From: a virus | Strand: one strand, 5' to 3' | Virus record (IMG/VR): IMGVR_UViG_3300010885_077209 | Coordinates: 1 to 26,259 of that record | Length of the DNA: 26,259 nt | Part shown: one piece after another, positions 2,850 to 21,700 of the stretch | Position numbering within the stretch: position 1 is the first letter of the stretch | How the letters are laid out: each line of letters begins with the position of its first letter | The notes under the pieces: model-generated | What the model saw: only the letters and a program-made list of their open reading frames with translations | Database searches by the model: none | What the model was told of the DNA's origin: nothing | Translations under genes and position numbers: made by a program

Positions 2850-3251
2850 ATGGCAATTACTAGGATATCTAGATCGTTTAAAGATATTAGTTTATCCTTT
2901 GATCCACACCCTGTGACTAAGGATTTACCAATTCTTAAAAATCAAAGTGCAATTATACGATCTGTTCGAAATATAGTTGAAACAATTCCAACTGAAAGAT
3001 TTTTTAATTCTACAATTGGTTCAAACGTTCGTTCTAGTTTATTTGAATTTGTAGATTTTGGTACTGCTTCGGTTATCCGAGATCAAATTCTTGTCGCAGT
3101 TTCAAATTACGAACCAAGAGTTACAAATGTAAATGTTGAAGTAAATCCTCAACCAGACATTAATAATTTTGAAGTTACCATTAATTTTGATATTATTGGG
3201 CAAGAAATTCCAACACAACAGTTTTCATTCATATTAGAGGCAACAGGATAA
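2850..3251 (+). CDS. 25: Baseplate wedge subunit gp25
   Basis: The 133-aa product matches the GPW/gp25 family (T4 gp25 is 132 aa), the baseplate wedge protein that contacts the gp6-gp7 core bundle and helps start sheath assembly. The family pattern is clear: an N-terminal extended segment, then KNQSAIIRSVRNIVET (30-45), the loop IPTERFFNSTIGSNVRSSLFE (46-66, equivalent to the GERxFxPxFGxxxxxLLFE motif), a helix VIRDQILVAVSNYEPRV (75-91) holding the hallmark EPRV, and three C-terminal beta strands. The start is ATG 2850; the ATG at 2843 is out of frame and hits a stop after six codons. It is 1 nt from gp6, as in a single operon. Confidence 0.93.
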   Translation: MAITRISRSFKDISLSFDPHPVTKDLPILKNQSAIIRSVRNIVETIPTERFFNSTIGSNVRSSLFEFVDFGTASVIRDQILVAVSNYEPRVTNVNVEVNPQPDINNFEVTINFDIIGQEIPTQQFSFILEATG

Positions 3252-3252
3252 A

Positions 3253-5178
3253 ATGCCTTTTACAAAGTTTGCTAATCTAGATTTTGATCAAATCAAGACC
3301 TCTATCAAAGATTATCTCCGTGCAAATTCCAATTTTACGGATTTTGACTTTGAGGGGTCTAATTTTTCTGTATTAATTGATACTTTAGCGTATAACACAT
3401 ATATTACTGCGTTTAACTCTAATATGGTTGTAAATGAATCCTTTCTGGATTCTGCAACACTAAGAGAAAATGTGGTCTCTCTTGCAAGAAATATTGGTTA
3501 CGTGCCGCGCTCCAGAAGCGCCTCAAAGGCAGTTGTTTCTTTTAGTGTATCAACTGCAGTAAATACTCCAACACTCACCTTACAGGCAGGATTAGTGTGC
3601 GTTGGGGCATCAGATGGAACTTCATATGTCTTCTCTGTTCCTTCTGATATTACTCGAAATGTGGTTAATGGTGTCGCTAGTTTCAGTGAGATTGAAATTA
3701 GTGAAGGAACATTTCTCAAAAAACAATTTACAGTAGATGGGTCACTAGATCAAAAATTTATTTTAAATAACTCATATATAGATACTTCCACGATTGTTGC
3801 GTATGTAAAATCACCAAGTGATACTGGACTAGGAAGGAAATATTCACTTATAGAAAATATTTTTAAAATTGATTCTGTATCAGAAACTTATTTACTTCAA
3901 GAAATTAAAGATGAAAAATATGAGATTTTCTTTGGAGATGGATATTTTGGCAAGAAGTTAGAAAATAATTCGGTTATTACAGTTACATATATTGTAACTG
4001 ATGGAAAAGATGGTAATGGTGCAGATGTATTTTCCTTTGCAGGAACTTTTAAGGATGCAAGTAATAATACAATTATTCCAACAAATACAATTACAGTAAC
4101 TACAAATCAAAAATCCCAAAATGGCGATGAGATTGAAGGAATAGATTCAATTAAATATTTTGCTCCAAGACTTTATTCCTCTCAATATAGGGCAGTCACT
4201 GCAAAAGACTATGAAGCAATTCTCAAAGATAAGATATATCCAGATACTGAATCTGTATCCGTAGTTGGTGGAGAAGAAATGAATCCCCCACAATATGGTA
4301 AAGTTTTGATTAGTATTAAACCAAAGAATGGAACTTATGTTTCAGACTTTAATAAAATGCAAATTCAAAATAAATTAAAACAATATACTGTTGCTGGAAT
4401 CAATCCAGAAATAATTGATTTAAAAATTTTATACGTTGAGATTGATTCTTCAATTTATTACAATAATTCTAGTATTGGTAGCGTAGAAGATTTAAAAACA
4501 AAAGTAAAGAATTCTCTCATATCATATTCAAAATCTACTAATTTGGGATCTTTTGGGGGAAGATTCAAATATAGTAAAGTCCTGCAGGTTATCGATAATA
4601 CTGATAGTGCAATTACTTCTAATATTACAAAAGTAAGAATTAGAAGAGATATGAAAGCATTTATCGGTAGACCTACTCAATATGAAATTTGTTACGGTAA
4701 CAAATTTCATGCAAATCCTGCAGGAAAGAACATCAAATCTACTGGATTTAAAATTGCTGGGGAAGCAGATACTGTTTATTTTACGGATGTTCCAAATTCA
4801 GATTTAAAAACTGGAATTATATCAGTTGTAAAAAAATCACCAATTACAGTTTCCGTTGGGTCTACTCAAGAATTAAAAACCATGGTCGTGGTTAAATCTG
4901 CAGGAACTGTTAATTATGAAACTGGTGAAATTTTACTTGGATCTTTAAATATTACATCAACATCATTAGATGCAGATATTATTGAAATTCAAGCATATCC
5001 AGAATCAAATGATATTATTGCTTTGACGGATTTGTATATCTCATTTGATGTTTCAAAAAGTTCAATAAATATGATTAAAGATGTTATTGCATCTGGTGAT
5101 GATATATCTGGAGTTATATTTTCAACAGAAGATTATTACAGATCAAGCTATTCGAACGGAGAATTAACGAGGGCGTAA
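3253..5178 (+). CDS. 6: Baseplate wedge subunit gp6
   Basis: The 641-aa product is close in length to T4 gp6 (660 aa), which dimerises with gp7 and gp25 to make the core of each baseplate wedge and the inner ring. The N-terminus (FANLDFDQIKTSIKDYLR, then FEGSNFSVLIDTLAYNTYI and SFLDSATLRENVVSLARNIG, about residues 6-82) is the helical part typical of gp6/baseplate J proteins. A beta-rich domain follows, and then the J-like signature RAVTAKDYEAILKDKIYP with GGEEMNPPQYGKVLISIKP (about 312-355). The C-terminal 150 residues are beta-rich, ending in a polar tail. It lies 1 nt after gp25 and 1 nt before the giant gene, with GAGGG (5169-5173) serving as ribosome site for the latter. Confidence 0.93.
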   Translation: MPFTKFANLDFDQIKTSIKDYLRANSNFTDFDFEGSNFSVLIDTLAYNTYITAFNSNMVVNESFLDSATLRENVVSLARNIGYVPRSRSASKAVVSFSVSTAVNTPTLTLQAGLVCVGASDGTSYVFSVPSDITRNVVNGVASFSEIEISEGTFLKKQFTVDGSLDQKFILNNSYIDTSTIVAYVKSPSDTGLGRKYSLIENIFKIDSVSETYLLQEIKDEKYEIFFGDGYFGKKLENNSVITVTYIVTDGKDGNGADVFSFAGTFKDASNNTIIPTNTITVTTNQKSQNGDEIEGIDSIKYFAPRLYSSQYRAVTAKDYEAILKDKIYPDTESVSVVGGEEMNPPQYGKVLISIKPKNGTYVSDFNKMQIQNKLKQYTVAGINPEIIDLKILYVEIDSSIYYNNSSIGSVEDLKTKVKNSLISYSKSTNLGSFGGRFKYSKVLQVIDNTDSAITSNITKVRIRRDMKAFIGRPTQYEICYGNKFHANPAGKNIKSTGFKIAGEADTVYFTDVPNSDLKTGIISVVKKSPITVSVGSTQELKTMVVVKSAGTVNYETGEILLGSLNITSTSLDADIIEIQAYPESNDIIALTDLYISFDVSKSSINMIKDVIASGDDISGVIFSTEDYYRSSYSNGELTRA

Positions 5179-5179
5179 T

Positions 5180-8100
5180 ATGATACAAACTGGTTTTGAA
5201 TCAAGGATAAAGGTACAGCAAATAATTGAAAATCAATTACCAGGATTTATCCTAGATGAAAGTCCAAAAACTGCTGAATTTTTAAAGCAATATTATATTT
5301 CCCAAGAATATCAGGGAGGACCGGTAGATATTGCTGAAAATTTAGACCAGTATTTGAATCTTGACAATTTAATTCCGGAAGTTATTGTAGGTAATATTGG
5401 CCTTAGTACCAATATTACATCTACTGTTGGAGTCATTACAGTAACAAGTACCAAAGGATTTCCATCAACATATGGTCTTTTAAAGATTGATGATGAGATT
5501 ATCACATATACTGGAATTACAACAAATACATTTACTGGTTGTATTCGTGGATTTAGTGGAATTACTAGTTATCATCAAGATTTAAATAGTGAAGAATTAG
5601 TTTTTTCAGAATCAAAATCAGCATCTCATGTTAAGAACTCTAAAGTAATAAACTTAAGCTCACAATTTTTACAAGAATTTTATAAAAAATTAAAATATAC
5701 TCTTACACCAGGTCTTGAACATGTAAATTTTGTTTCAGATTTGCATGTAGGAAACTTTATAAGGGAATCAAAAACTTTATATCAAACCAAAGGAACTGAT
5801 GAATCATTCAGAATATTATTTAATATTTTGTATGGCGAAACACCAAAAGTAATTGATTTAGAGAAGTTTTTAATTAAACCATCAGCAGCAAAATATATTC
5901 GAAGGGAGGTGATGGTTGCCGAAAGAATTTCTGGAGATCCTTCTCTATTAGTTGGGCAGACAATTAGAAAATCTACAGATGAAAATACTACTGCATCCGT
6001 ATCTGAAGTAGAAATTATAAAGAGAGGAGTAAAAAATTATTACAAGTTGCTTATTTTTATTGGGTATGATGATACGTTCCCAACTGTTACTGGAACGTTC
6101 AACATTACTGGAAGTACTAGGGTTTTGGAAGATGTAGAACCTAATGCAAATATTATTACTGTAGACTCCACAATTGGGTTTGGGCAAACAGGAACAATCT
6201 ATATTGGAAACAATATAGCAACGTATACTAGTAAAAGTATAAATCAATTTTTTGGATGTACTGGAATCGAAACAACTGTAAAGGCAACCAGTATTGTTCG
6301 TTCCGATGAGACATATTATGGATATGAAAATGGTGATTTTAGTAAGAAAGTAGAATTGAGATTGACAGGGGTAGTATCAAAATTTTTACCCACACTACAA
6401 TTAGGTACAGTTGATGAAAATGAACAAATAGGCGTAAAATATTTGGGAGAAATTATTACAAATCCCACAGAAAATGCATCGAAAGAAGAAATTTTTGCAA
6501 ATAGTTGGATTTATAATACAAGTTCAAGATATCAAATAGAAAGTTTTAATTCTGGATCTATATCCCAAGTGGTATTGAGCGGAACTATTGACAAATCCAG
6601 CTTAAAGGTTGGAGATAGGATTAATATTTTAGAAAGAGATAGTGAAATTTTAGCAGTTAGTAATTTAACTATATTAGAAATAACTAATAATCAAATATCA
6701 ATTTCAAACAATTTTACTTTAAATCAAAACAAAGATTATGATATTAGAAGAATAATCAATTCATCTTCTGTAACTGAAAATTCTACTTCATTAGAATACA
6801 ATTCTTTATTTGCAGATATTCAAAATGTTTATATCGATAATAATTATGGATACATGTATGTTGCATCAAATTCTTTACCATCATATGAAATAGATAAAAA
6901 GACTTTTTCATATATTGCATCATCTCTTTCAGATCAAGATATTGAAACTGGATTATATTCAACAATTAATTTTGAAGAAAAGGTTTCATTTTTAACTGGT
7001 TTTCAAATTTTTTATCAACCAGAAATATCCCCAATTTCAGGACTGGCAAAGGGAATTTATTATGTAGAAGTTTTAAGCAATAAATCTCAAATCAGATTAT
7101 ACACATCCAAGACATTTATTGGATCTGAAAATTATATTCAATTTGGAGAATTAGTGCCAGGAAATCATTTATTCATTTTGAACAGTCAGAGTAATAATAT
7201 TATTTCTGCTCAAAAAATTCTAAGAAAATTTCCAATTAATACAAATATTGCAGATGGTTCGTCAGATTTAACAGATCCTGGTTCAGTTGGAATGTTGATA
7301 AATGGTGTTGAAGCAACAAGTTATAAATCAAATGAAAAAATTTATTATGGACCGATAGAAAGAGTAGATGTATTGAATGGTGGGAAAAATTATGATGTAA
7401 TTAATCCTCCAATACTACAAATATCTTCAGGAATAGCATCAATTCAACCAATTGTTAGAGGATCAATTGAGAGAATATTTGTAGACCCCCAAGATTTTAA
7501 TATTGATACGCTGGTATCAATTGCAGTCACAGGTGGTAATGGTAGAGGGGCATCATTTGAACCATTTATAGAGATCCAGAGAAGAGAAATCGAATTTGAT
7601 TCCAGACAAACCATCTATGGGGGAGGAGTTGATATATATTCAGAAACTATTACATTTTTATCACCACACTATCTTTCCAATGGGCAACCAATTTATTATA
7701 GTCCAAGAAATAATAATCCATTAGGTATTGGAAATTTTAATGCAAGTAATGTTTACCAAAATAAAACATTGAATGATGGCGGAATATATTATACTAAGGT
7801 TATTAACAACACTACAATTCAACTATATGAAAGAATATCTGATTATAGAATTGGAATTAATACAGTTGGTTTTACAGAATCTCAAACTTCTGGAATTCAT
7901 ATTTTTAAAACAGAACCAAAAAAAGTTTTAACGGATATTAAAGTTATAAATCGTGGAAGTGGATATGAAAATAGAAAATTAAGAGTTAATAGTTCAGGAA
8001 TATCCACAATTAATAATACAATTACTTTTAAAAATCATGGATTTAATCATGGCGAATTGATTGTATATAATTGTGAAACAACTGCAATTAGTGGATTATC

Positions 8101-11100
8101 TTCATCAAAACAATATTATATTTTAAAAATTGATGATAATAAATTTAGATTATCAGATGCCGGTATTGGTGGGACAAGTATATTAGATTATCAGAGAGAA
8201 AAATATGTGAAATTTGGAACAACTGGTTCTGGATACCAAATATTCAATTATCCTCCAATTAGTGTTAAAGTAGAATATACTACTTCTGGAATAGGCAGCA
8301 CATCTATTCGAGGAACAATTATTGCAAATCCAAGTGTTAAAGGTGAAATAGTGGGGGCATATCTTTATAATGCTGGTAGTAATTATGGTTCAACAATTAT
8401 AAATTTACATAAAAAACCAACAATATCAATTAAAAATGGAAAAAATGCCGAAGTAAGTCCTGTAATTGTTAATGGCAGAATAATCGACACAAATTTGCAG
8501 TATGGAGGAATTGAGTACTATTCGACACCAGATTTAAAAGTTATTGGATCTGGAAGTGGATGTATTCTAAGACCAGTGATTCAGAATAATAAATTAGTAG
8601 ATGTCATTGTTGTAACTTCTGGATCTGGATATGGGGAGAATACAAGGATAATAGTAGAATCTTCTGGAAAAAATGCAATATTTGATGCAAAAATTAGACC
8701 ACTTGAAATAAACAATAATTTTTTCTATGCAACTGAAGATTTACTCAGTAATTTTAGAAAAACATCAAATGAATTGTTGATTAATTCAAGAAATAATCTG
8801 CAGTATTTTATTTCTGGATACTCACAATTTATACAGAATCAATTTAATGATATTGGATTGAATCATTCTCCGATTATTGGATGGGCATATGACGGAAATC
8901 CAATATATGGATCTTATGGATATACAGACCCCAATGATAAAAATTCCCCCATTAAACGTTTGTCTTCTGGGTATACTACAAATGCTTCAAATATTGAAAA
9001 TAGACCGGCAGATTTTTATCTTGGATTTTTTGCTGATGATTATAAATTTACATCTTCTGGAGATTTGGATGCATCTAACGGAAGATTCTGCATAACACCA
9101 GAATTTCCAAATGGTGTTTATGCATACTTTGCAACATCTGAGTCAGACATATATGGAAATATAGTTGGACAATTCCCATATTTTATTGGAAATTATTATA
9201 GGTCTAAATTTGTCTCAGATAACAGGAAATTGGACCAGTCATTTGATTTCAATAATTCCAAATTAATCAGAAATACATTTCCATATAAAATTAATGACGA
9301 ATATGGTGGAAATGATTTTATTATTGAATCAAATGAAATTATTAATCAAAAAACTAATGTAGAATCTGTAACATCTGGAAGTGTTTCCAATTTTAATATT
9401 GTAGAGCCCGGTAATGATTATAAAATTGGAGACAATTTAAATTTTAATGCAATAGAAATAAGCGAAGATAATGGTGGAATAATAGCGCAGGTTTCCAAAC
9501 TAAAAGGAAAAGATATTGTAAATTTACAAACCACTTTAACCTCATATTATGATGCTATTTTTACCTGGAAAAATGGAAACCAAGTGGAAGTTTCAATTTT
9601 ACCTTACCATAGCATAGAAAATCTCGACACCGTAACAATCTCCGGATTCTCAACATCATTGAGTGATTTAAATGATTCATATCAGGTTGGAGTAACATCA
9701 TACACTTCAATACTAATTAGTGATATGCCAGCATTTTCTATGCCGCCATATTATATGCCAACAGCAGGTATTGTAACTGATATATATGTTTCAAGAATAC
9801 CAGACAATATTTCTATTGGAAGTAGTATTGGTATTGGAACAGAAACATTGTCAGTTATAAACATTTTTAATGATTTAAGTGTTTTAAGAGCAGTTAGGCA
9901 GCAACCAACTGGATCAGCTCATACTTCAACTACAATAGTTAATTTTATTCCAAATTCATTTACAATAGAACATAAAACAAATTATTTTGATTCCAAATTA
10001 AATAAAGAATTTTATTTTAATCCAAAACAATCTGTTGGAATTGGAACAACTGCTGGAGCAGGAACTTCACTAACATATACTGTTGGAAATAAAGATTATC
10101 AGATTTCAGTACCTACGCAATCGATTTTTCTACCAGATCATCCATTCGAAACAAATCAAGAGGTAATATTTAAAAAATTATCATCTTCAGATCCATTATA
10201 TGTTTCAAATACTCAAACGAGTGATTTATATACTCTTCCTACGAGTGGAAATCAACAAATAGTTTATATCATTAAAAAATCTAAAGATTATATTGGAATT
10301 GTAACTCAAGTTGGATTGACAACAACAACTAACGGATTGTTTTTTCAAAATAATGGGACAGATGATTATCGATATTCTATAAAATCTACATATTCCCAAG
10401 TAACTGGTAATGTTGATAAAATTAAAACATTAGTTTCAGTATCAACCTCACATAATCTTTCTAATGGAGATACTATTAATTTGAATTTAATTCCCAATCT
10501 TTCTGTGGGAATTGGAACTTCAACTTCAATTTCTGTCAAGTATGATACTTCGACGGAGAGATTATTAATTAATCCTATAGGATTTAGTACATCAGGAATT
10601 AATACTTCAACAAATACTATTACTCTCAGATCACATAATTTGAATACTGGGAATAAGATATTATATTCATCTAATGGATCTGTTGCTCAAGGACTGTCTA
10701 CTGGATTTTATTTTGTATATAAAGTTGACAATGATAAAATAAAACTATGCGAAACTTATATAGATTCTGTAACAATTCCGCCGACTGTTGTAGATATTGT
10801 AGGTATTGGAACTACAACTCAAACAATTTCACCGATTAATCCCAAAATTGATGTTATTAGAAACAATAATTTAATATTTAATCTTTCAGATACTTCCTTA
10901 TTGGGATATAATTTTAAAATTTATTATGATCAAGATTTTGCTGACGAGTTTGTATCTACAGGTTCTGCAAGTACATTTTCAATATCCGGATTTGGAACTG
11001 TTGGAGTATCCACTAATGCATCATTGGCATTAAATTATAGTGAAGGGTTGCCAACAAAATTATATTATAGTTTAGAAAAATCGGGATATATTAGTACTGC

Positions 11101-14100
11101 AGATAAAGAAGTTAAAAATTATTCTCAAATTAATTATGTAAATTCAACTTATAATGAAAATTACATCGTTTCTGGATTGGGTACAACAACTTTTAATATT
11201 GTATTGACTAATATTCCCGAAAAATTGTCATATAATCAATCAGAATGCTCTACATTAGAGTATAGTACAAATTCTTTATCTTCCTCCGGAGGAATCAAAA
11301 ATATTAGAATAATTTCTGGAGGAAATGGATTTAAAAAATTACCAGTTTTTGCTGGAAGTAATTCTACAAATGGTAATGGAGCATATATTATTTGTGAGTC
11401 AGATTCAATTGGTAGGATTAATCAAACAAAAATTTTAAATGAGGGATTTGAATACTCATCAGATAAAACTCTTAAACCAAAGGCAGATATTCCTTCAATA
11501 ATCAATTTATCATCTTCAAGTACTATTTCAAATATTTCTGTTTTAGACAGTGGTAAAAATTATACATATGCTCCAACTTTAATTGTAGTTAATTCTGATA
11601 CTGGAGAAAAAATTGATTCTGGATTTTTATCCCCAAAATTAGTTGGAAGTGGAATTGCTTCAGTAGATATTGTTAATGAACCAAAAGGATTGCCATCATC
11701 AATAGTAACAATTAAAAGCATTAATAATACCAATGGTGTTGGTATTCAATCAATGTCAACAAATAGTAATAGTGGCGTTGCAACTTGCACTTTAATCACA
11801 CCATTAAGTGGATTTAATATAGAACCATTTGCTGTTGGTGATAAAATTTTTGTTGAGGGTGTGCAACAATATAGTTCTAATGGAAATGGATTTAACTCGG
11901 AAAATTGTGGGTATGAATTTTTTACAGTAATAGGATACACAAATGCTGGAACATATGAACCTAGACGATTAACATTTAGTGTGGCAGAATTCACAACAAA
12001 TTCAGGAATTGCAAAAACTATACAAAATTCATATGGATTTATTGTAAATTATAAAAATTATCCAAAATTTGAAGTAACTCAAAAACTTTCCACATTTATT
12101 ATTGGGGAATATTTATCAGTACTGGTTAGTGGAAAGTTTGTAAAAATTGATTTAAAAATAACTCAGTATAATAATGATAGTATTAAGGTTCAAGGAAACT
12201 ATGATTTATCTGTTAATGATCTTATTCGAGGAGTTCAGTCGGGAAGTATTGCAACAATTAATTCGATAATAAAAAATTATGGCGAATTTGATGTCAGTTA
12301 TAGTTGTAAGCAAAATTTAGGTTGGTCGGATAATATAGGTAATTTAGATGAAGATGTGCAAGTAATTTCTGATAATGATTATTATCAAAATCTTTCATAT
12401 TCATTAAAAAGTTCTCAAACATGGGAGAATATTGTTACTCCAGTTAATAATATTCTACACCCGACTGGTCTTAAAAATTTTGCAGATACTGAAATTATTT
12501 CTAATACAGGATTTGCATCTACCAATACGTTTGAATATACATCTATTCTGTATGATATTTTTAACGAAAATAGAGTCGATACTATTAATAATTTTGATTT
12601 ATCTTTAGATGTTGATCTATCTGCAGATGGTTCATCTAAGTTTTTAAAATTTAAAAATAAAAGATTAGCAGATTATATTGAATGTAGGACTAATAGGGCT
12701 CTTATAGTAGATGATATTAGCGCAGAATTTTCAAGTTCGGAACTCGATTCGGGAACATATTCAAATATTTCCAATATTATAACATCTAAAAAATATGGAA
12801 GATTTTTAGTTCAAATTTCTGATATTAAAAATACTAAATTTCAATTTTCAGAAATTATAACAATTAATGATAATAATGACATATTTACTTTGGAAAAAGG
12901 TAGTATTGGAAATACAAATACCCGTTTAGCAGATATTTATGGATATGTTGATGAGGTTAAAAATTTCTATTTAAAATTTGTACCAGAAGATGTATATAAT
13001 ACCGATTACAATATTAAAGTTTTATCAAATACCTTTGATAATTATTTAACTGGGATTGGCACTTATCCAGTTGGTTTCGTTAATCTTGTGAGTTCAAATT
13101 CAGTTGTTGGTGTAGGAAGTACGGTTACTATTATTTCAGCACCAATTAGTAATTTGAATTCATTATTCTCAAATATTCATATTCTCAATAATAATGCATC
13201 TTATGAGATGAATTATGTAGAGTTGTATGTTGATCATGATGGAACAAATACCAATATTAGTGAATATTATTTTGATTCTCAAATACAGTCTAGTGGTAAT
13301 TTTATTGGATCGTTTGCTGCATCAATTTCCAATAATACAATAAAACTTAATTATACAAACACATCAAATAATCCCGTTACTTTACGCTCCAAGAATGTGG
13401 GATTTGGAACAACTTCTATTGGAGGTTCTACATATAGATTCCAATCAATAGGTCAACCAGATGGTAGTGAAAGGACGGTAAATTATATTTCAAATTATAG
13501 TAAAGTATCTGCAGCATCAACTATCGTATCTTTAAATAAAAACGATTTCATCTCATTAAAGTCAACTATAAAAGTAAGTATTGGAAATACTAGCGCATTA
13601 CATCAAGTTATGATGATTCATGATGGTAATGATGTATATACAACACAATATCCATTTTTATCGATTGGAAGTACTAGCGGAATTGGTACTTTTGGTGGAG
13701 AGTATTTTGGAAGTTATGTAAATCTTAAATTTTATCCAGATCCAACAATTTCTGGGACGTTTACAGTTTTAACTTTTAATGAATGTTTTTATAAAGAATT
13801 AGACCTGATTAATATTCCAATAAAATTGACATATAAAAATATTACAGAATCTGTAAATAGTCAGAGATATATTTCTATTAATAGTAACTATAAAAATAAA
13901 TTAGATTTTGATTTAAAATATCGTGGATATCCAATTTTTGAAAAAATATTTGACCCAGCAAATACCACTACTTTAGATTATAGTGAAGGAGAATTTAGTA
14001 TACCAGATCATTTCTTCAGCACTGGTGAAGAATTAATTTATACACCAGGTTCCAGCTTCATTGGAATTGCTGAAACATCGGTCAGTATAGGTTCCACTTT

Positions 14101-17100
14101 AAATTCTAGTGGAATTGTCACGGATAGGTTACCAAGTAAAGTATTTGCAATTAAAATTACTAATGATAAATTTAAATTATCAACAAGGAAAGATTATGCT
14201 CAAGCAGGAATTTATGTTACATTTACATCTGTAGGTTCTGGAAATTATCATAAACTTGAGATGTTTAAGAAAAATGAAAAATCAATTATTACTATTAATA
14301 GTATGATTCAACATCCACTTAATTATTCTTTGGTAAGCCATACCATAAACAATGGTGGTCAAATTGGAACAGCATCTACTATATTTGTTTTAAGTGGCAT
14401 TTCATCAATTTCTCCTGGAAATATTCTTAAAATTGAAGATGAATATATGAAAGTCAGTAATGTTGGACTAGCAACTACTTCTTCTGGTCCTATTACATTT
14501 AGTGGAAATGTCCCACTAGTTCAAGTTGTAAGAGGATTTGCTGGAACATCAAATTCTACACATAATAATGGAACTGCTGTTAAGGTATATACTGGTTCAT
14601 TTAATATTGTGGGTAGCAAAATTTACTTTACGGAAGCACCTAGAGGAAAATTGATAGATGATAATGATTTGGATAACCTACCAAATGCAAAAGCAACATT
14701 TGATGCAAGAGTTTTCTTAAGAAATGATTATTCGAATAATCAAATTTATGATGATATATCAAATACATTTACTGGTATTGCACAAACATATCCATTAACG
14801 TCCCAAGGAATTGCCACAGTAGGTCTTAGTAGTATCGGTGGAAATGGTATTGTCGTGATTAATGGCATGTTCCAAACTCCAACTACGAAGAATAATTCCA
14901 ATAATAACTACATTATTGCTGAAAATAGTGTTTCTGGTATCAGCAGCGTCGTATTTTCTGGAATTACATCTAGTAATGGGTCAATTGTCATTTCAGATTA
15001 TGATATTAATAGAAACCAACTTCCTAGAGGTGGGCTGATTGTTTCTCTTGGTTCAACACCAGGACTTGGTTTTGCACCTCTTGTAGGCGCTTCTGTCACT
15101 GCTACAGTTTCTTCTGGATCTATTATTTCTGTTGGTATTGGAACTAGTGGTAATTTTGGTTCTGGATATAGAAATCCAGTTTCAATTGCAGTAACTGATA
15201 GTAGTCACACAGGAACGGCAGCAACAATTACAGCAACCGTTGGTGCTGGAGGAACGTTATCATTCAATATTATTGGTGGTGGAACTGGATATGTAAATCC
15301 AAAAATTAATATCTCTTCACCAAGTTATGAGAATCTGCCCGTAATTGGAGTTTCTAGACTTGGAATTGGAACTACTACAGAAACTGGAGTTGGATTATTA
15401 CTGAATGTAGAGGTTGGCGCTAGTTCAACGGTTGGCGTTGGATCAACTTTATTTCAAGTAACATCCTTCAAAATAACCAGACCAGGATATGCATTTAAAA
15501 GAGGAGATGTTTTAAGACCTGTTGGATTAGTCACTGCTAAAGGATTGTCATCTCCACTTAGTGATTTCACTCTCACAGTTTTGGATACATTTACAGATTC
15601 GTTCGCAGCTTGGAAATTTGGAGAACTTGACTATATTGATTCTATTAAAACACTTCAAAATGGTACTAGGCTGAGATATCCATTATATTATAATGAGCAA
15701 TTACTTAGTTTTGAAAAAGATTCTAAGAATTCAGATTCTCAAGCAATTGATTTTGATTCTTTACTTATTATTTTTATTAATGGAATTTTACAACAACCAG
15801 GAGTTGCATACCAATTTAGTGGTGGAACCTCATTTACATTTACCACTCCACCAAAACAAAATGATAATGTTGCAATTTTCTTCTATAGGGGAAGTAATTT
15901 AGACAGTACTTCAGTAGATGTAAATGAAACCGTGAAAGAAGGTGATGAATTACAAATTTTCAATAATGATACCTTATTGGGAATTACTACAACACAAAAT
16001 CCAAGAGTAATATCTGGAATAAAAACCTCGGATACAATAGAAACAAATGCCTATAGATTACAAGGTATAGATATTATCAATTTTAAACCAACTAGTTGGG
16101 TAAAACAAAAGGTTGATAGATTTATAGACGGATCAATTATTTCCAAATCTAGAGATTCTTTAGAACCTCAAATATATCCAACTGCAAAAATTATTAGAAA
16201 TTTTGAATCTACTGATACTGGAGTATTTGTCGATGATTCAGAATTTTTCAATTATGAGAATGAAGTGTCAATTGATTTTGATGCATTTATTGTTAGTGGG
16301 AAATCAAACCCAGTTTCCGCTGCTGTTACTGCAATAGTTTCTGCTGCAGGAACAATCCAATCACTTTCTATTACCAATGCTGGAAGTGGATATGAAGGTC
16401 CATCAGTTACTGTTAAAATTGCCTCTCCACTAACCATCGGCATTTCAACTTCATTACCGATGGGAGTTGGAATTGGTATTGGAACTACTGCAACAGCAAC
16501 CATTGCTGTTTCTGCTCAAGGAACTCTAACAACCCCTATTACGATTACAAATCCAGGATTGGGATATAGTATTGGAATGGAACCACAAGTTATTACTCCT
16601 CTCCCCAATCCAATATACGAAAATATTACTAATATTACAAATATTCAAGGATTTTCTGGAAATATTGTTGGTATTGGGACTACAGTAGGTATCGGAACTA
16701 ATTTGGCAATAAAATTTACTTTAGATCCAACCCTTTCACCATTTACTGGATTACAAGTTGGATATCCGATTTATATTTTCAATAGTAAAGTTGGAAATGG
16801 AGTAACATCAATTATTAATACTAATTCTTCTATTGTGGGTGTTGGAACAACATTCTTGGACAATATCTACTATATAAATGCTTTCAGTTCATTGACGGGA
16901 ATTATTACCTGCAATGTAATATCGACAACATCTGTAGTTGGTATTGCTACAACGGGTTCAAGAGTTGCACAATTTTCTTGGGGAAGAATATTTGGATTTA
17001 CTAGATCATCTTCACCAATTTCAATCGCAGTTTCTTCCTATACCGTAGATGCTGGGTTATCAACATTTCCAACAATTCAACGAAGAGGTTATGGGTTAAG

Positions 17101-17131
17101 AACCAATGGTGCTTTGAAAAAGATTTTATAA
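5180..17131 (+). CDS. Giant 3983-aa baseplate/tail protein in the gp7 position
   Basis: It lies between gp6 and gp8, the gp7 slot of T4. Residues ~30-300 resemble the C-terminal core of T4 gp7: a helical start (EFLKQYYISQEY, 33-44), LSSQFLQEFYKKL (159-171), YQTKGTDESFRILFNILYGE (201-220) and LVGQTI (257-262) with a following beta meander. The rest is a chain of beta-rich modules: four copies of a module with a G-x-I-x-x-E-x-I-x-Y core and, in most, a trailing RG; about six copies of an H-x-hydrophobic-x-x-G receptor-like module; many GxGY turns; V-G-I-G-T strings; a YHYH-type domain (~1223-1345); an INGILQQPG segment (~3533); and a conserved cyanophage C-terminus (FPTIQRRGYGLR). No signal peptide or membrane segment is seen. 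T4 gp7 is 1032 aa, so this is almost four times longer. It probably forms the wedge core plus peripheral decoration or receptor-contact arms. There is no internal stop or frameshift over 11.9 kb. Confidence 0.85.
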   Translation: MIQTGFESRIKVQQIIENQLPGFILDESPKTAEFLKQYYISQEYQGGPVDIAENLDQYLNLDNLIPEVIVGNIGLSTNITSTVGVITVTSTKGFPSTYGLLKIDDEIITYTGITTNTFTGCIRGFSGITSYHQDLNSEELVFSESKSASHVKNSKVINLSSQFLQEFYKKLKYTLTPGLEHVNFVSDLHVGNFIRESKTLYQTKGTDESFRILFNILYGETPKVIDLEKFLIKPSAAKYIRREVMVAERISGDPSLLVGQTIRKSTDENTTASVSEVEIIKRGVKNYYKLLIFIGYDDTFPTVTGTFNITGSTRVLEDVEPNANIITVDSTIGFGQTGTIYIGNNIATYTSKSINQFFGCTGIETTVKATSIVRSDETYYGYENGDFSKKVELRLTGVVSKFLPTLQLGTVDENEQIGVKYLGEIITNPTENASKEEIFANSWIYNTSSRYQIESFNSGSISQVVLSGTIDKSSLKVGDRINILERDSEILAVSNLTILEITNNQISISNNFTLNQNKDYDIRRIINSSSVTENSTSLEYNSLFADIQNVYIDNNYGYMYVASNSLPSYEIDKKTFSYIASSLSDQDIETGLYSTINFEEKVSFLTGFQIFYQPEISPISGLAKGIYYVEVLSNKSQIRLYTSKTFIGSENYIQFGELVPGNHLFILNSQSNNIISAQKILRKFPINTNIADGSSDLTDPGSVGMLINGVEATSYKSNEKIYYGPIERVDVLNGGKNYDVINPPILQISSGIASIQPIVRGSIERIFVDPQDFNIDTLVSIAVTGGNGRGASFEPFIEIQRREIEFDSRQTIYGGGVDIYSETITFLSPHYLSNGQPIYYSPRNNNPLGIGNFNASNVYQNKTLNDGGIYYTKVINNTTIQLYERISDYRIGINTVGFTESQTSGIHIFKTEPKKVLTDIKVINRGSGYENRKLRVNSSGISTINNTITFKNHGFNHGELIVYNCETTAISGLSSSKQYYILKIDDNKFRLSDAGIGGTSILDYQREKYVKFGTTGSGYQIFNYPPISVKVEYTTSGIGSTSIRGTIIANPSVKGEIVGAYLYNAGSNYGSTIINLHKKPTISIKNGKNAEVSPVIVNGRIIDTNLQYGGIEYYSTPDLKVIGSGSGCILRPVIQNNKLVDVIVVTSGSGYGENTRIIVESSGKNAIFDAKIRPLEINNNFFYATEDLLSNFRKTSNELLINSRNNLQYFISGYSQFIQNQFNDIGLNHSPIIGWAYDGNPIYGSYGYTDPNDKNSPIKRLSSGYTTNASNIENRPADFYLGFFADDYKFTSSGDLDASNGRFCITPEFPNGVYAYFATSESDIYGNIVGQFPYFIGNYYRSKFVSDNRKLDQSFDFNNSKLIRNTFPYKINDEYGGNDFIIESNEIINQKTNVESVTSGSVSNFNIVEPGNDYKIGDNLNFNAIEISEDNGGIIAQVSKLKGKDIVNLQTTLTSYYDAIFTWKNGNQVEVSILPYHSIENLDTVTISGFSTSLSDLNDSYQVGVTSYTSILISDMPAFSMPPYYMPTAGIVTDIYVSRIPDNISIGSSIGIGTETLSVINIFNDLSVLRAVRQQPTGSAHTSTTIVNFIPNSFTIEHKTNYFDSKLNKEFYFNPKQSVGIGTTAGAGTSLTYTVGNKDYQISVPTQSIFLPDHPFETNQEVIFKKLSSSDPLYVSNTQTSDLYTLPTSGNQQIVYIIKKSKDYIGIVTQVGLTTTTNGLFFQNNGTDDYRYSIKSTYSQVTGNVDKIKTLVSVSTSHNLSNGDTINLNLIPNLSVGIGTSTSISVKYDTSTERLLINPIGFSTSGINTSTNTITLRSHNLNTGNKILYSSNGSVAQGLSTGFYFVYKVDNDKIKLCETYIDSVTIPPTVVDIVGIGTTTQTISPINPKIDVIRNNNLIFNLSDTSLLGYNFKIYYDQDFADEFVSTGSASTFSISGFGTVGVSTNASLALNYSEGLPTKLYYSLEKSGYISTADKEVKNYSQINYVNSTYNENYIVSGLGTTTFNIVLTNIPEKLSYNQSECSTLEYSTNSLSSSGGIKNIRIISGGNGFKKLPVFAGSNSTNGNGAYIICESDSIGRINQTKILNEGFEYSSDKTLKPKADIPSIINLSSSSTISNISVLDSGKNYTYAPTLIVVNSDTGEKIDSGFLSPKLVGSGIASVDIVNEPKGLPSSIVTIKSINNTNGVGIQSMSTNSNSGVATCTLITPLSGFNIEPFAVGDKIFVEGVQQYSSNGNGFNSENCGYEFFTVIGYTNAGTYEPRRLTFSVAEFTTNSGIAKTIQNSYGFIVNYKNYPKFEVTQKLSTFIIGEYLSVLVSGKFVKIDLKITQYNNDSIKVQGNYDLSVNDLIRGVQSGSIATINSIIKNYGEFDVSYSCKQNLGWSDNIGNLDEDVQVISDNDYYQNLSYSLKSSQTWENIVTPVNNILHPTGLKNFADTEIISNTGFASTNTFEYTSILYDIFNENRVDTINNFDLSLDVDLSADGSSKFLKFKNKRLADYIECRTNRALIVDDISAEFSSSELDSGTYSNISNIITSKKYGRFLVQISDIKNTKFQFSEIITINDNNDIFTLEKGSIGNTNTRLADIYGYVDEVKNFYLKFVPEDVYNTDYNIKVLSNTFDNYLTGIGTYPVGFVNLVSSNSVVGVGSTVTIISAPISNLNSLFSNIHILNNNASYEMNYVELYVDHDGTNTNISEYYFDSQIQSSGNFIGSFAASISNNTIKLNYTNTSNNPVTLRSKNVGFGTTSIGGSTYRFQSIGQPDGSERTVNYISNYSKVSAASTIVSLNKNDFISLKSTIKVSIGNTSALHQVMMIHDGNDVYTTQYPFLSIGSTSGIGTFGGEYFGSYVNLKFYPDPTISGTFTVLTFNECFYKELDLINIPIKLTYKNITESVNSQRYISINSNYKNKLDFDLKYRGYPIFEKIFDPANTTTLDYSEGEFSIPDHFFSTGEELIYTPGSSFIGIAETSVSIGSTLNSSGIVTDRLPSKVFAIKITNDKFKLSTRKDYAQAGIYVTFTSVGSGNYHKLEMFKKNEKSIITINSMIQHPLNYSLVSHTINNGGQIGTASTIFVLSGISSISPGNILKIEDEYMKVSNVGLATTSSGPITFSGNVPLVQVVRGFAGTSNSTHNNGTAVKVYTGSFNIVGSKIYFTEAPRGKLIDDNDLDNLPNAKATFDARVFLRNDYSNNQIYDDISNTFTGIAQTYPLTSQGIATVGLSSIGGNGIVVINGMFQTPTTKNNSNNNYIIAENSVSGISSVVFSGITSSNGSIVISDYDINRNQLPRGGLIVSLGSTPGLGFAPLVGASVTATVSSGSIISVGIGTSGNFGSGYRNPVSIAVTDSSHTGTAATITATVGAGGTLSFNIIGGGTGYVNPKINISSPSYENLPVIGVSRLGIGTTTETGVGLLLNVEVGASSTVGVGSTLFQVTSFKITRPGYAFKRGDVLRPVGLVTAKGLSSPLSDFTLTVLDTFTDSFAAWKFGELDYIDSIKTLQNGTRLRYPLYYNEQLLSFEKDSKNSDSQAIDFDSLLIIFINGILQQPGVAYQFSGGTSFTFTTPPKQNDNVAIFFYRGSNLDSTSVDVNETVKEGDELQIFNNDTLLGITTTQNPRVISGIKTSDTIETNAYRLQGIDIINFKPTSWVKQKVDRFIDGSIISKSRDSLEPQIYPTAKIIRNFESTDTGVFVDDSEFFNYENEVSIDFDAFIVSGKSNPVSAAVTAIVSAAGTIQSLSITNAGSGYEGPSVTVKIASPLTIGISTSLPMGVGIGIGTTATATIAVSAQGTLTTPITITNPGLGYSIGMEPQVITPLPNPIYENITNITNIQGFSGNIVGIGTTVGIGTNLAIKFTLDPTLSPFTGLQVGYPIYIFNSKVGNGVTSIINTNSSIVGVGTTFLDNIYYINAFSSLTGIITCNVISTTSVVGIATTGSRVAQFSWGRIFGFTRSSSPISIAVSSYTVDAGLSTFPTIQRRGYGLRTNGALKKIL
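5410..5605 (+). repeat. RG module copy 1 (giant protein, ~78-142)
   Basis: Protein-level repeat: a strand ending in ST-x-x-F, then YGLLKIDDEIITYTG, then CIRGFSG. It is inserted inside the gp7-like core. Confidence 0.6.
6150..6300 (+). repeat. RG module copy 2 (giant protein, ~324-374)
   Basis: Divergent copy: NIITVDSTIGF, TGTIYIGNNIATYTS, then FFGCTGI in place of the RG element. Confidence 0.5.
8846..9214 (+). other. YHYH-type domain inside the giant protein
   Basis: Residues ~1223-1345 carry the YHYH-family plan: HSPIIGWAYDGNPIYGSYGY (from 1229), a SGY strand, R-x-x-D-F-Y, a hallmark GDLDASNGRF (1294-1303), TPEFPNGVYAYFAT (ending 1319) and FPYFIGNYY (1332-1340). At the position of the name-giving YHYH, this copy reads YAYF (1314-1317), so both histidines are missing. 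The domain's function is not established. Confidence 0.75.
9790..9950 (+). repeat. RG module copy 3 (giant protein, ~1537-1591)
   Basis: Copy with IGSSIGIGTETLSVINIF, then SVLRAVRQQPTGSAHTSTTI: the R-x-x-R element and the gtaHs tail are kept. Confidence 0.5.
14370..14610 (+). repeat. RG module copy 4 (giant protein, ~3064-3144)
   Basis: Well-kept copy: TIFVLSGISSISPG, NILKIEDEYMKVSNVG, then VVRGFAGTSNSTHNNGTAV. Confidence 0.6.
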
Positions 17132-17163: not shown

Positions 17164-18726
17164 ATGTCGGCACTTGTAACAGATCAATTTAGAATATTAA
17201 ATACTAAGAATTTTATAGATTCTGTTCAGAATTCTTCGAATTCATATTATGTTTTTGTTGGGCTGTCAAATCCAACAGCTATGGTTGGTTTTGGTCGTTC
17301 TTCAACATGGAATACAACTCCACCCAATCCAACTGACAATTTGGATTATTTAAATCATTATGAATCAACTCTTCTTTTTGGAAAAAAAATTACAAGTGCA
17401 AATATTAGAAGAGCAGTTAGGAGGATTAATTGGTCTAGAGGAACAAGATATGAAATGTATAGGCAAGACTATAGTGCCATTACTCCATCACCAATAACTG
17501 GATCGATGAGATTATATGATGCAAATTATTATGTTGTAAATAGTGAATATAAAGTTTATATATGTATTGATAACGGATCATCTGGAATTAATACAACAGG
17601 AAATGCATCGCAAGATGAACCTGCATTTATTGATTTAGAACCATCTAAAGCTGGTGAAAGTGGTGATGGTTATTTGTGGAAGTATCTCTATACAATTTCA
17701 CCAAATGATATTATCAAGTTTGATTCTATTGAATATATTACAGTTCCAAATAATTGGGAATCTTCTACAGATTCCCAAATCAGTGCTATAAGGCAAAATG
17801 GAGATTCCACATTAAATGACAATCAAATAAAAAAAGTTTATATTGCAAATACTGGGGAAGGATATGGGATTGTAGATGGACAATCTTGTAATATTGTTGG
17901 TGATGGGACTGGTGCAAAAGTTGTAGTTAATGTAGATAGCTCTGGAAGAATTACTGATACTACAGTAACATCTGGAGGAAAAAATTATACTTATGCTCTT
18001 GTAGATTTAGGAACAAATCTAAGTCCAACAACATATTCAGAATTAATCCCAATTATTCCACCATCAAAGGGACATGGATTTGACATTTATAACGAATTAG
18101 GAACAGATAAAGTTTTAATATATGCTAGATTTGACGATTCAACAAAAAATTTTCCAATAGATGCAAAATTTGCTCAAGTTGGAATTATAAAAAATCCAAC
18201 TAGATACGATTCTTCAGGAATTACTACCACAATATATACTGAAAATGAATTTTCTGGTTTATTTGCAATTAAATTAAGTGGTACTCCAACTGGTACAATT
18301 TCCGTTGGAGATAAAATTAAACAATCAGTTACTGATGGAATTGCGGTTGGATATGTTGCTTCATATGATAAAGATATAAATGTTATAAAATATTATCAAG
18401 ATAGATCACTGTATTTTAATTATGCTTCCAGTGATCATACTGATTATATTGGATTATCAACGACAGGAAAAGTTTTGCAATTTAATTCTACCAATCAAAT
18501 CAGTAAAGTTGGTGGAGAATTTATTGCAAACGTTGCTGCAGGTTTTAGTGGCAGTAAAGTTACTATTGGAAATAAAATTGTTAATCTAGGAGTTGAATTT
18601 ACAGATGGTCTTTCAAATCCCGAGATAAATAAAAAGTCGGGAGAAATAATATACATCGACAATAGACCTACTGTAACAAGGAATTCTAGACAAAAAGAAG
18701 ACGTTAAAATTATCCTGGAATTTTAA
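17164..18726 (+). CDS. 8: Baseplate wedge subunit gp8
   Basis: gp8 dimers bridge gp6-gp7 and gp10 in the T4 wedge. The N-terminal ~215 residues carry the gp8 pattern: QFRILNTKNFIDSV (8-21), GFGRSSTWNTTPPNPTD (40-56), RRAVRRINWSRGTRYEMYRQ (81-100, matching the RRDW-x-x-TRY segment of T4 gp8) and GDGYLWKYLYTISPNDIIK with EYITVPNNW. The extreme C-terminus SGEIIYIDNRPTVTR...KIILEF (492-520) matches the SGEMIYMENRP...ILFTF end of T4 gp8. At 520 aa it is much longer than T4 gp8 (334 aa). The extra length includes a GxGY-type insertion (about 226-283: NTGEGYG, GDGTGAKVVVNV, TSGGKNYTYA) like the modules in the giant protein. The ribosome site is weak; ATG 17164 follows a perfect late promoter. Confidence 0.93.
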   Translation: MSALVTDQFRILNTKNFIDSVQNSSNSYYVFVGLSNPTAMVGFGRSSTWNTTPPNPTDNLDYLNHYESTLLFGKKITSANIRRAVRRINWSRGTRYEMYRQDYSAITPSPITGSMRLYDANYYVVNSEYKVYICIDNGSSGINTTGNASQDEPAFIDLEPSKAGESGDGYLWKYLYTISPNDIIKFDSIEYITVPNNWESSTDSQISAIRQNGDSTLNDNQIKKVYIANTGEGYGIVDGQSCNIVGDGTGAKVVVNVDSSGRITDTTVTSGGKNYTYALVDLGTNLSPTTYSELIPIIPPSKGHGFDIYNELGTDKVLIYARFDDSTKNFPIDAKFAQVGIIKNPTRYDSSGITTTIYTENEFSGLFAIKLSGTPTGTISVGDKIKQSVTDGIAVGYVASYDKDINVIKYYQDRSLYFNYASSDHTDYIGLSTTGKVLQFNSTNQISKVGGEFIANVAAGFSGSKVTIGNKIVNLGVEFTDGLSNPEINKKSGEIIYIDNRPTVTRNSRQKEDVKIILEF

Positions 18727-18729
18727 GAA

Positions 18730-21700
18730 ATGGCTCAAAAAACAAATCTCAATGTAAGTCCTTATTATGATGACTTTAATGAACCCACTATAGGGGCTAG
18801 AGATAAAAACTATCATAAGATTCTTTTTAATCCAGGGAGACCTGTGCAGGCAAGAGAATTAAATACCTTACAATCAATTTTACAAAATCAAGTAGAATCA
18901 TTTGGAAGTCATCTTTTTAAAGAAGGTTCTTTAGTAATTCCTGGAAATATTGCTCTTGATATTGAATTCTATTCAGTAAAATTAAATCCAACAACATTTG
19001 GTGTTGATATTACCTCGTATATTGAAAATTTTGTTGGTCAAAAAATTACCGGACAATCTTCAGGAACTACAGCAATTATTCAGAAAGTTGTTTTACCAAA
19101 TTCTGAAATTGAATATGTAACTCTATATGTAAAATATCTAGATTCTGATAATAATTTTATCTTTAATCCATTTAAAGATGATGAAGGTTTAGTTGCCAAC
19201 GAAAATATTACTTATGGCAACACAACTATTGCTGCGGGAACAACTTTTGCATCCACAATTTCCAATAATTCAACATCTACAGGATCTTCAGCATCTATTG
19301 CTGATGGAATATATTTTATTAGGGGAACTTTTGTAAAAGTACATAAACAAAATATAATTCTAGATTATTATACAAATAAACCATCTTATAGAGTTGGTTT
19401 AAAAATAAACGAAAATATTATCAATTCAAAAGATGATGCTACACTATATGATAATGCAAAGGGTTTTACAAATTATGCTGCTCCTGGGGCAGATAGATTT
19501 CAGATTGAATTAATATTAACCAAAAAACCCATAACAGAAATTGATAACGATACAGATTTTGTTGAGATATTGAGAGTTAAAGATGGTGCAATTAAAAAGA
19601 TTGACGTAAAATCAAATTATAATGTTATTAAAGATTACCTAGCTCAAAGAACTTATGATGAATCTGGAGATTATTCGGTAATTCCATTTCAAATATCAGT
19701 AAATAATTCCCTAAATGATAGAATTGGAAATGATGGATTATTTTTTGATAACGAAAAAACCGATCAAGGAAATATTCCCTCTAATGATTTGATGGGAATT
19801 AAATTATCTCCCGGTAAAGCATATGTTAGGGGATATGATATTGAAAAGACTGGTGTTGAAATTTTAGATGTAGAAAAACCAAGAACAACTGAGACGGTAA
19901 GTAATATCAATATTCCTTTTGAAATGGGGAATTTACTTAGAGTTAATAATGTTTCTGGATCTGTAAAACAAAAATTATCCGTTGGATTATATAATAGAAG
20001 AAAAGACTCAGATTCAACTCCAAATGGAACAAAAATTGGAGATGCTAGGGTATATACAATCAATTTAACTGATGCTGCATATGCTAATAATGCAACAAGT
20101 TGGGATTTGTATTTGTATGATGTACAAACGTATACTGAATTAACTCTAAATCAGTCATTATCATCATCAGAACTTCCAATATCATCTTTTATTAAAGGAA
20201 AGAGTAGTGGTGCCAGTGGATATGCAGTGGCAGCTGGGTCCGGAAGTTCTATAATCAATGTAATTCAAACTTCTGGAAATTTTTCTAGGGGAGAAACAAT
20301 CTTAATTAATGGGATAGAAATTTATCCGAGGTCTATTAAATCAATTAAAGTATATGGAATTGATGATATTAAATCAATTTACCAATCAACTGCCACCTCT
20401 GGATTTTCAAAAGCATTTTTGGCAGATACTCAATTGGATAGTGTCCTTGCAAAGGGATTTAGTACATTAGATTCAATTACTATTGAAACAAATGGGGCAG
20501 TAAGTGGATCTGGAAAAGCATTTACTGGGATTAAGACTGATACGATCATTAGATATCAAAGACCTGGACTTTCTGTAGAAACCTATAATAGGGTTGTTTC
20601 AATTAATCCCGATGGTTTTGGAATGGTCGTTGCTGGGCTGACAAGTTCGGTAACTGGTGTTTGTGATAAAGATTTACCATCATCTCAATTAGTAACAAAT
20701 TTTTCCTTAGGCGTTCCAAAAATTAAAAATAGCAGTAATGGATACCTATACGCAAAAATACCAAGTTCAAATGTAGCATCCACAAATTTAGCAAATTCAA
20801 ACATAGTATTTACTGCACAGTCAAATGCAACATTTACTCCATCTTCCAACACTTTAACAGTTAATACTAGCAATTTTGCTGTAGGAGTTAATACTTCTTT
20901 AGTTAATTTTGAATCATTTGATGAGGAAAGATATTCTATTTTTTACACTAATGGAACAATTGAGAGGTTAACTTCTGACAAATTTACTTTATCCGGAAAC
21001 CAAGTTACATTTTCAAACATTGCTAATAGTGAGATTTCATTAATTAATGCAACTTTTGTCAAAAGCAGTATTCAAAGCAAATCTAAATTGTACACTCGCA
21101 GTCAAACTATTTCTGTTAATCTATCAAAATATTCCCAATCTGGAACAGGAATTAATACATCAACTAATGATGGATTGGCATATAATCAATATTATGGATT
21201 GAGAGTTCAGGATGAAGAAATTTGTTTGAGATATCCAGATGTTGCAAAGGTTTTGGCAGTATATGAATCATTGGACACATCCACACCTTCATTGGATGTA
21301 CTAAATTTCAATATACTTTCTAATGTCGATTCTAATGCAATTATTGGTGAAAATATAATTGGAACCAGTAGTAAAGCAATTGCTAGGGTTGTGAGTAAGC
21401 CATCTTCAGGAAAGATAGGTATTGTTTATTTGAACGATAATAAATTTTTAGATGGAGAAAGTGTGAGATTCAACGAATCTAATGTTTCCACAGAAATTAA
21501 TTCAGTAACAAATGGAATATATAAAAATATAACAAATAAATTCATATTAGATAAAGGGCAAAACGAACAATATTATGATTATTCAAAAATTGTTAGAAAA
21601 AATGGTGAGCAAGAACCAACAAAACAATTATTAATTGTATTCGATTATTATCTTCTTCCTACCAGTGATACTGGGGATGTATTTACTGCCGATAGTTATG

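Follow-up and report, generated by a model that had tools for sequence, protein, structure and literature searches.

A giant cyanophage wedge protein as a gp7 with its core in three pieces and arms proposed for the outer baseplate

The gene at 5180-17131 of the window (the whole stretch of DNA analysed, 26,259 nucleotides) is identified by sequence comparison as the gp7 of a T4-like cyanophage, and this identity was confirmed. We consider it likely that the product is a wedge gp7 with its core in three pieces, carrying arms that we propose to be outer baseplate, and that it is an outgrowth of a gp7 of ~280 residues. Profile comparisons show the gp7 core to be preserved in three colinear pieces, at residues 1-66, 146-310 and 2351-2441. 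Because the third segment lies at 2351-2441, ~2,040 residues stand inside the core and ~1,540 residues after it.

A giant gp7 is in itself nothing new, since a phrog_2885 gene in the same slot is annotated gp7 in P-SSM2 and relatives occur in 461 records. A description of the split core was found neither in the open-licence literature nor in the cyanophage gp7 annotations examined. T4-like cyanophages are common marine phages, and the giant is one of their largest virion proteins, under a name that is only borrowed. In the literature a tail structure was found for the Anabaena myophage A-1(L), and none for a T4-like marine cyanophage. A gp7 core that is retained but split would anchor the first arm at both ends and put both arms on the wedge. 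It supplies exact boundaries with which a compact gp6-gp7 core could be made. It also offers a testable account of the growth of a single wedge protein, which in T4 would have gained residues ahead of the core and in the cyanophages within and after it.

Gene, neighbourhood and family

The reading frame (plus strand) begins with ATG one base after the stop of the gp6-like gene and runs for 3,983 aa without internal stops. It is preceded by genes for a gp25-like baseplate wedge subunit (2850-3251, plus strand; phrog_261, E 2.9e-50) and a gp6-like wedge protein (3253-5178, plus strand; phrog_219, E 6.6e-204) and is itself assigned to phrog_2885 'baseplate wedge subunit' with 3,684 bits (E 0). 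Behind it lie the genes for a gp8-like wedge protein (17164-18726, plus strand; phrog_438, E 1.6e-153; PF09215) and for a second giant of 2,411 aa (18730-25965; phrog_358, function unknown; DUF4815 at residues 1052-1282). The gp6-like protein, matched in 2,430 phage records by tblastn, carries PF21379 (Gp6-like_1st) at residues 11-83 (E 4.4e-18). Judged by this domain match the core-bundle helical domain is kept, and the protein is the expected partner of gp7.

The order of these five genes resembles that of P-SSM2, P-HM1, ACG-2014e and S-SRM01, and in these four named cyanophages the giant likewise stands directly after gp6 and before gp8. S-RIM2 differs in having a gp9/gp10-type connector gene immediately after its giant. 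The original prediction had placed the frame in the gp7 slot, and its position between gp6 and gp8, its assignment to phrog_2885 and the gp7 annotation of the P-SSM2 homologue (PSSM2_111, 5,195 aa) bear this out. Upstream of gp25, a probable S-adenosylmethionine decarboxylase gene (phrog_3125) was seen at 2233-2574, with an S-SRM01 counterpart in the same region. The 2,411-aa protein carries one IRG module at residues 1997-2058, and its relatives at the same position are annotated VrlC-like.

The first 320 residues of the giant match 461 phage records with names that start with Synechococcus, Cyanophage, Prochlorococcus or Marine. Nearest among the named phages compared is S-SRM01 (QPX48159), which came from a reservoir and has 54% identity over the full length, while the P-SSM2 giant shows 42% identity and is colinear except for an additional block of ~1,090 residues. 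In cyanophage gp7, also annotated 'baseplate wedge initiator' (phrog_2885), slot, family and split core are all as in the window, and the proteins of P-SSM2 and S-SRM01 differ from it in length and arm details only. The 240 metagenome contigs included stem from best-80 lists, and counts over them are no census. In the accessible part of Sullivan et al. 2010 (PMC3037559), large structural proteins such as gp7 are described as falling into as many as nine clusters in the T4-like phages other than cyanophages.

Two proteins from published peptide analyses can be likened to the giant. S-SZBM1_208, a 'Baseplate wedge initiator' of 6,619 aa compared by its label only, is represented by 71 peptides in virions according to the available part of the report (PMC9146016), and S-CREM2 ORF122, which lies between two other wedge genes and is compared by its slot only, by 91 unique peptides in the corresponding part of another (PMC10665884). 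For the S-SZBM1 protein the peptide coverage in the same excerpt is partial, 13.5%, which would fit a giant that is cleaved after translation, with the arms as separate virion proteins. Such cleavage is very unlikely in our view, since the window and the five named cyanophages that were translated all have the gene as one reading frame, and a cut within the first arm would sever core piece 3. The 'Gp7b' entry of Aeromonas phage 65 was also considered as a natural split of gp7 and was rejected, as the record (NC_015251, 86748-90263, minus strand) holds one T4-type gp7 frame with one in-frame TAG.

The core pieces of gp7

Core piece 2 (residues 146-310; 5615-6109, plus strand; hhalign) comprises the KGT helices and a domain like domain V of T4 gp7. 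Using hhalign, 35 cyanophage sequences were compared with six T4-type gp7s, and residues 190-309 of the window protein aligned with T4 gp7 724-822 (E 4e-7 to 7e-7, score 61-63). The highest score in 59 column shuffles was 23.7 and the reversed alignment scored 18.0, while a broader profile of 52 sequences gave E 6e-7 and 1e-6 against T4-type gp7. By these comparisons the similarity between the giant and T4 gp7 exceeds chance, and the relation of the N-terminal region to T4 gp7 that had been predicted is upheld by the profile match. The T4 strings given in that prediction are exact, with STKGIEASYKFLFKVLYNE (KG at 738) and LVGQTIYTATG (at 781) both present in T4 gp7, and the strings quoted from the window, including LVGQTI, were located inside residues 159-262. 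The T4 region had been called C-terminal; it does belong to the last third of T4 gp7 (1,032 residues), though not to its very end.

In a profile search T4 gp7 matched phrog_2885 (E 1.3e-4) and also phrog_26741 and phrog_17744. Both of these bridging families are matched by the giants of ACG-2014e and S-RIM2, and the first of them, phrog_26741, by the window giant. The reverse search, with the T4 gp7 family against five complete cyanophage genomes, gave matches in three (E 3e-5, 8e-5 and 0.006), only within the giant and around the KGT helix, and none in the other two; one of 14 control genomes was matched as well. A separate gp7 gene was not found by this family search in the five complete cyanophage genomes. 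The original prediction had held the outer part of T4 gp7 to be absent from the giant, and residues 1-620 of T4 gp7 indeed have no detectable counterpart there. When 26 windows along the giant were used in 78 window-by-segment tests, only two windows over residues 190-292 matched, and these only to the T4 core.

In four phages the slot after gp6 holds a much smaller protein, here called minimal gp7: Salmonella phage Mutine (284 aa), Pseudomonas phage Cygsa01 (291 aa), Vibrio phage K447 (335 aa) and Klebsiella phage cp21 (283 aa). These proteins have a helix-turn-helix-like start, a KGT-type helix and an end segment with HPAG or HPSG, and the three that were scanned (Mutine, Cygsa01 and K447, with cp21 left out) belong to PF23786 'Phage baseplate wedge subunit'. 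The window giant reaches 14.1 bits against PF23786, which is under the Pfam curated cut-off of 27 bits, and 24 of 25 close relatives match the family weakly (best E 2.1e-5). Core piece 1 (residues 1-66; 5180-5377, plus strand; hhalign) is a helix-turn-helix and is matched best at residues 16-40, which align with the minimal gp7 N-terminus (E 2.6e-7; none of 200 shuffles was as good). Compared with T4 alone, core piece 1 is not significant (E 0.014, equalled by 5 of 200 shuffles). The KGT region of core piece 2 matches minimal gp7 with E 4.2e-4 and a score of 34, where 60 shuffles gave at most 27. Minimal gp7 set directly against T4 gp7 does not reach significance (E 0.16), so that the two are linked via the giants and the bridging families.

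P2 gpI (Tail_P2_I, PF09684) was considered as an ancestral form and set aside as suggestive only. Residues 187-218 of the giant align with gpI 64-95 without reaching significance (E 0.007, probability 5%), and the KGT helix has a similar look; a match to core piece 3 is absent from gpI.

Core piece 3 is the last segment of the core (residues 2351-2441, HP at 2427; 12230-12502, plus strand; HMM and hhalign). The first sign of it was a match of the last segment of K447 to the ACG-2014e-type giant family (profile positions 1827-1885, E 8e-5). An HMM made from giants only found the piece as a single copy in each of 121 ORFs, in none twice, and in 113 of the 113 core-bearing ORFs of sufficient length. 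The HMM also recognises all four minimal gp7s at their C-terminus (E 2e-8 to 1e-4) and six of six T4-type gp7s at the HPVG or HPIG site (E 0.0023 to 0.063), E-values that refer to a 21-protein set and are expected to be larger in a full database. Nothing below E 2 was found in six gpI-type proteins or in gp25, gp6 and gp8 of the window, and no match was listed for the 2,411-aa protein. In profile comparisons piece 3 matches the minimal gp7 C-terminus with E 8e-8 (0 of 100 shuffles) and full-length T4 gp7 more weakly, with E 1.2e-3 and a probability of 19% (0 of 100 shuffles). The T4 counterpart was missed in a shallow alignment of close relatives only and in a scan with 300-residue windows. 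Comparison of 99 windows of the giant with each of three parts of minimal gp7 placed the best matches at residues 16-40, 186-224 and 2389-2439, in the correct order.

The last segment is of the type YSYxxK...HPxG. The HP pair is retained in only 86 of the 121 ORFs, and therefore the profile and not the motif defines core piece 3; among 41 long close relatives the strict HPxG pattern occurs in 10 and the profile in all 41. One could argue that piece 3 is a mobile module common to several tail proteins and not the end of the gp7 fold, as other modules are shared (IRG with the 2,411-aa protein, GGY with gp8) and the match of piece 3 to T4 is weak. However, a mobile module would hardly occur exactly once per ORF, stay out of the neighbouring wedge and gpI-type proteins as well as the matches listed for the 2,411-aa protein, and keep its order in four of four minimal gp7s, and we regard this explanation as unlikely. 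With piece 3 read as the end of the gp7 fold, KG and HP are separated by 2,223 residues in the window, 2,301 in P-SSM2, 2,419 in P-HM1, 1,634 in ACG-2014e and 2,789 in S-RIM2. In Mutine the two sites are 77 residues apart, and in T4 146. Over the giants such distances could be taken from 76 of the 121 ORFs, those with both sites by simple pattern. At the same site phrog_17744 (765 positions) seems to have an insertion of intermediate length, because the T4 core (at 12-121) and the last segment of K447 (at 682-722) lie far apart there.

The order of the parts also bears on the original prediction of a permuted gp7, with one core block at the N-terminus, ~3,700 appended residues and thus a purely C-terminal arm. 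Most of the core does lie in residues 1-310, where the strongest T4 similarity is found, and later 300-residue windows are without T4 similarity. But the third core segment follows some 2,200 residues downstream, and instead of forming a single block the core is broken by a beta insert of 79 residues and by ~2,040 residues. Nor does permutation agree with the minimal gp7s, which are core-first and have the same order: helix-turn-helix, KGT helices and last segment follow each other identically in these proteins of 283-335 aa, in the giant and, where alignable, in T4 gp7. Since the minimal gp7s start with the core and the giant matches their parts, core-first is a natural order, and we judge a permutation to be quite improbable. 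Mutine (PF23786) shares with the giant the helix-turn-helix in front, the KGT helix, the last segment and their order; it lacks the arms, so that KG and HP are 77 residues apart and not 2,223. The additional mass stands before the core in T4 (~620 residues), and inside and after the core in the cyanophages.

Residues 1-322 were modelled for structure comparisons, and the model is weak (mean pLDDT 54). Among 350,542 chains compared by Foldseek, the two ranked first have 1,031 and 1,004 residues and come from two T4-type baseplate entries (E 8e-4 and 1.4e-3; next chain 0.16), and they were taken as gp7 because they have gp7 length and both entries contain gp7. With the same weak model, four of the best 50 matches in a viral structure library are T4-type wedge proteins (E 2.6e-4 to 6.4e-4). 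The best 50 matches of a VIA structure search concern mainly the beta insert and include no gp7 chain. No gp7 came up when the PDB was searched by sequence with the giant and with 25 close relatives.

Inserts, arms and their proposed place in the baseplate

Between core pieces 1 and 2 a beta module of the IRG type is inserted (residues 67-145, 79 residues; 5378-5614, plus strand; HMM match 79-131). Residues 70-163 of the model superimpose on the JBD30 baseplate chain 8rk3_b with Z 8.7 and rmsd 2.1 over 75 aligned residues. Less specifically, this beta insert (70-163; 5387-5668) resembles the N-terminal beta-barrels of ATP synthase chains.

Arm A (residues 311-2350, ~2,040 residues; 6110-12229, plus strand) lies within the core and contains IRG, HLG and GGY modules and a YHYH-family domain. 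Arm B (residues 2442-3983, ~1,540 residues; 12503-17128, plus strand) lies past the last core segment, contains HLG and GGY modules and can be aligned with S-SRM01 along its full length. The IRG module occurs in the giant at 79-131 and 319-369, with the 2,411-aa protein as second carrier, the HLG module in six copies below E 1e-3, and the GGY module in seven copies below E 1e-3 and also in gp8, where it occupies residues 221-302. These three repeated modules explain part of the arms. In blastp comparisons of P-HM1, ACG-2014e and S-RIM2 with the window only some blocks match, in the same order (the N-terminal core, ~678-747, ~1053-1450 and parts of 1888-2432), so that the arm keeps to fixed stations rather than being a random mosaic.

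The YHYH-family domain of arm A (residues 1226-1326; 8855-9157, plus strand; PF14240, E 5.8e-28) lies within the best conserved arm block, ~1053-1450, which is shared with P-HM1, ACG-2014e and S-RIM2. Its name-giving stretch reads YAYF in the window, with YAY invariant in 49 aligned relatives, and YCYF in S-RIM2, so that the histidines expected from the family name are missing. A model of the YHYH block (421 aa, mean pLDDT 61.5) had no PDB match at E <= 0.001, and the function of the arms is therefore something that we infer.

We think that the arms may be the outer, fibre-bearing part of the wedge, because the inserts are placed as in the XM1 homologue and because gp11 and the gp9/gp10 N-domain were mostly not found. 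In the five cyanophages gp11 was found in none and the gp9/gp10 N-domain was not found in four, S-RIM2 having a gp9/gp10-type gene. The available part of the XM1 description (PMC10457771) gives the gp7 homologue gp17 as a protein of 242 aa with N-terminal helices in the core bundle and a loop and C-terminus that hold the tail spikes, and in the gp7-like part of AlgoCIS Alg12, as far as its published description was available, extra parts hold spikes or fibres. The inserts of the giant stand at comparable places to those of XM1: one follows the first helices, one precedes the last core segment and one is C-terminal. As likened by these published descriptions, XM1 gp17 resembles the giant in having core-bundle helices in front and extra parts holding spikes or fibres, although it is far smaller.

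T4 gp7 is a monomer present six times per tail and forms with gp8 a platform for gp6, and its domain B contacts gp10, which carries gp11 and gp12, according to the accessible part of PMC3004832. The giant shares with T4 gp7 (1,032 aa) the KGT helices, the start of domain V (E 4e-7), the slot and the partners gp6 and gp8, whereas its arms have no T4 counterpart and T4 1-620 none in the giant. In the proposed architecture the three core pieces would lie together in three dimensions and, paired with two gp6 chains, belong to the core bundle and trifurcation unit. Arm A would be a long loop that exits and re-enters the wedge, and arm B a tail that exits it. Six giant chains would then build the outer baseplate and bear fibre or receptor-binding surfaces, for which T4 uses the N-terminal half of gp7 together with gp10 and gp11. 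T4 gp7 and the giant would thus be outgrowths at different sites of a ~280-residue gp7, which makes a permutation unnecessary.

More tentatively, and with somewhat less than even confidence, we suggest that the centre of the wedge tolerates an insert of ~2,000 residues and that six covalent loops replace a multi-protein pin assembly in cyanophage baseplates. A single chain that exits and re-enters the core would in this case take over the outer baseplate, to which gp10 and gp11 contribute in T4 alongside the outer half of gp7.

Selection and variation along the gene

Compared with three contigs, gene-wide dN/dS was 0.13, 0.21 and 0.19, and because of these values the whole giant gene looks to be under purifying selection. 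For core pieces 1 and 2 dN/dS was 0.02 to 0.09, and around piece 3 it was 0.09 to 0.12. In the S-RIM2 giant (L094, 18135-37271; 6,378 aa) the stretch from the helix-turn-helix to KGT is ~500 residues longer, with KG at 701, and the first insertion site is therefore also a growth point. A close relative of the giant in L074, at 3721, stops after 885 residues.
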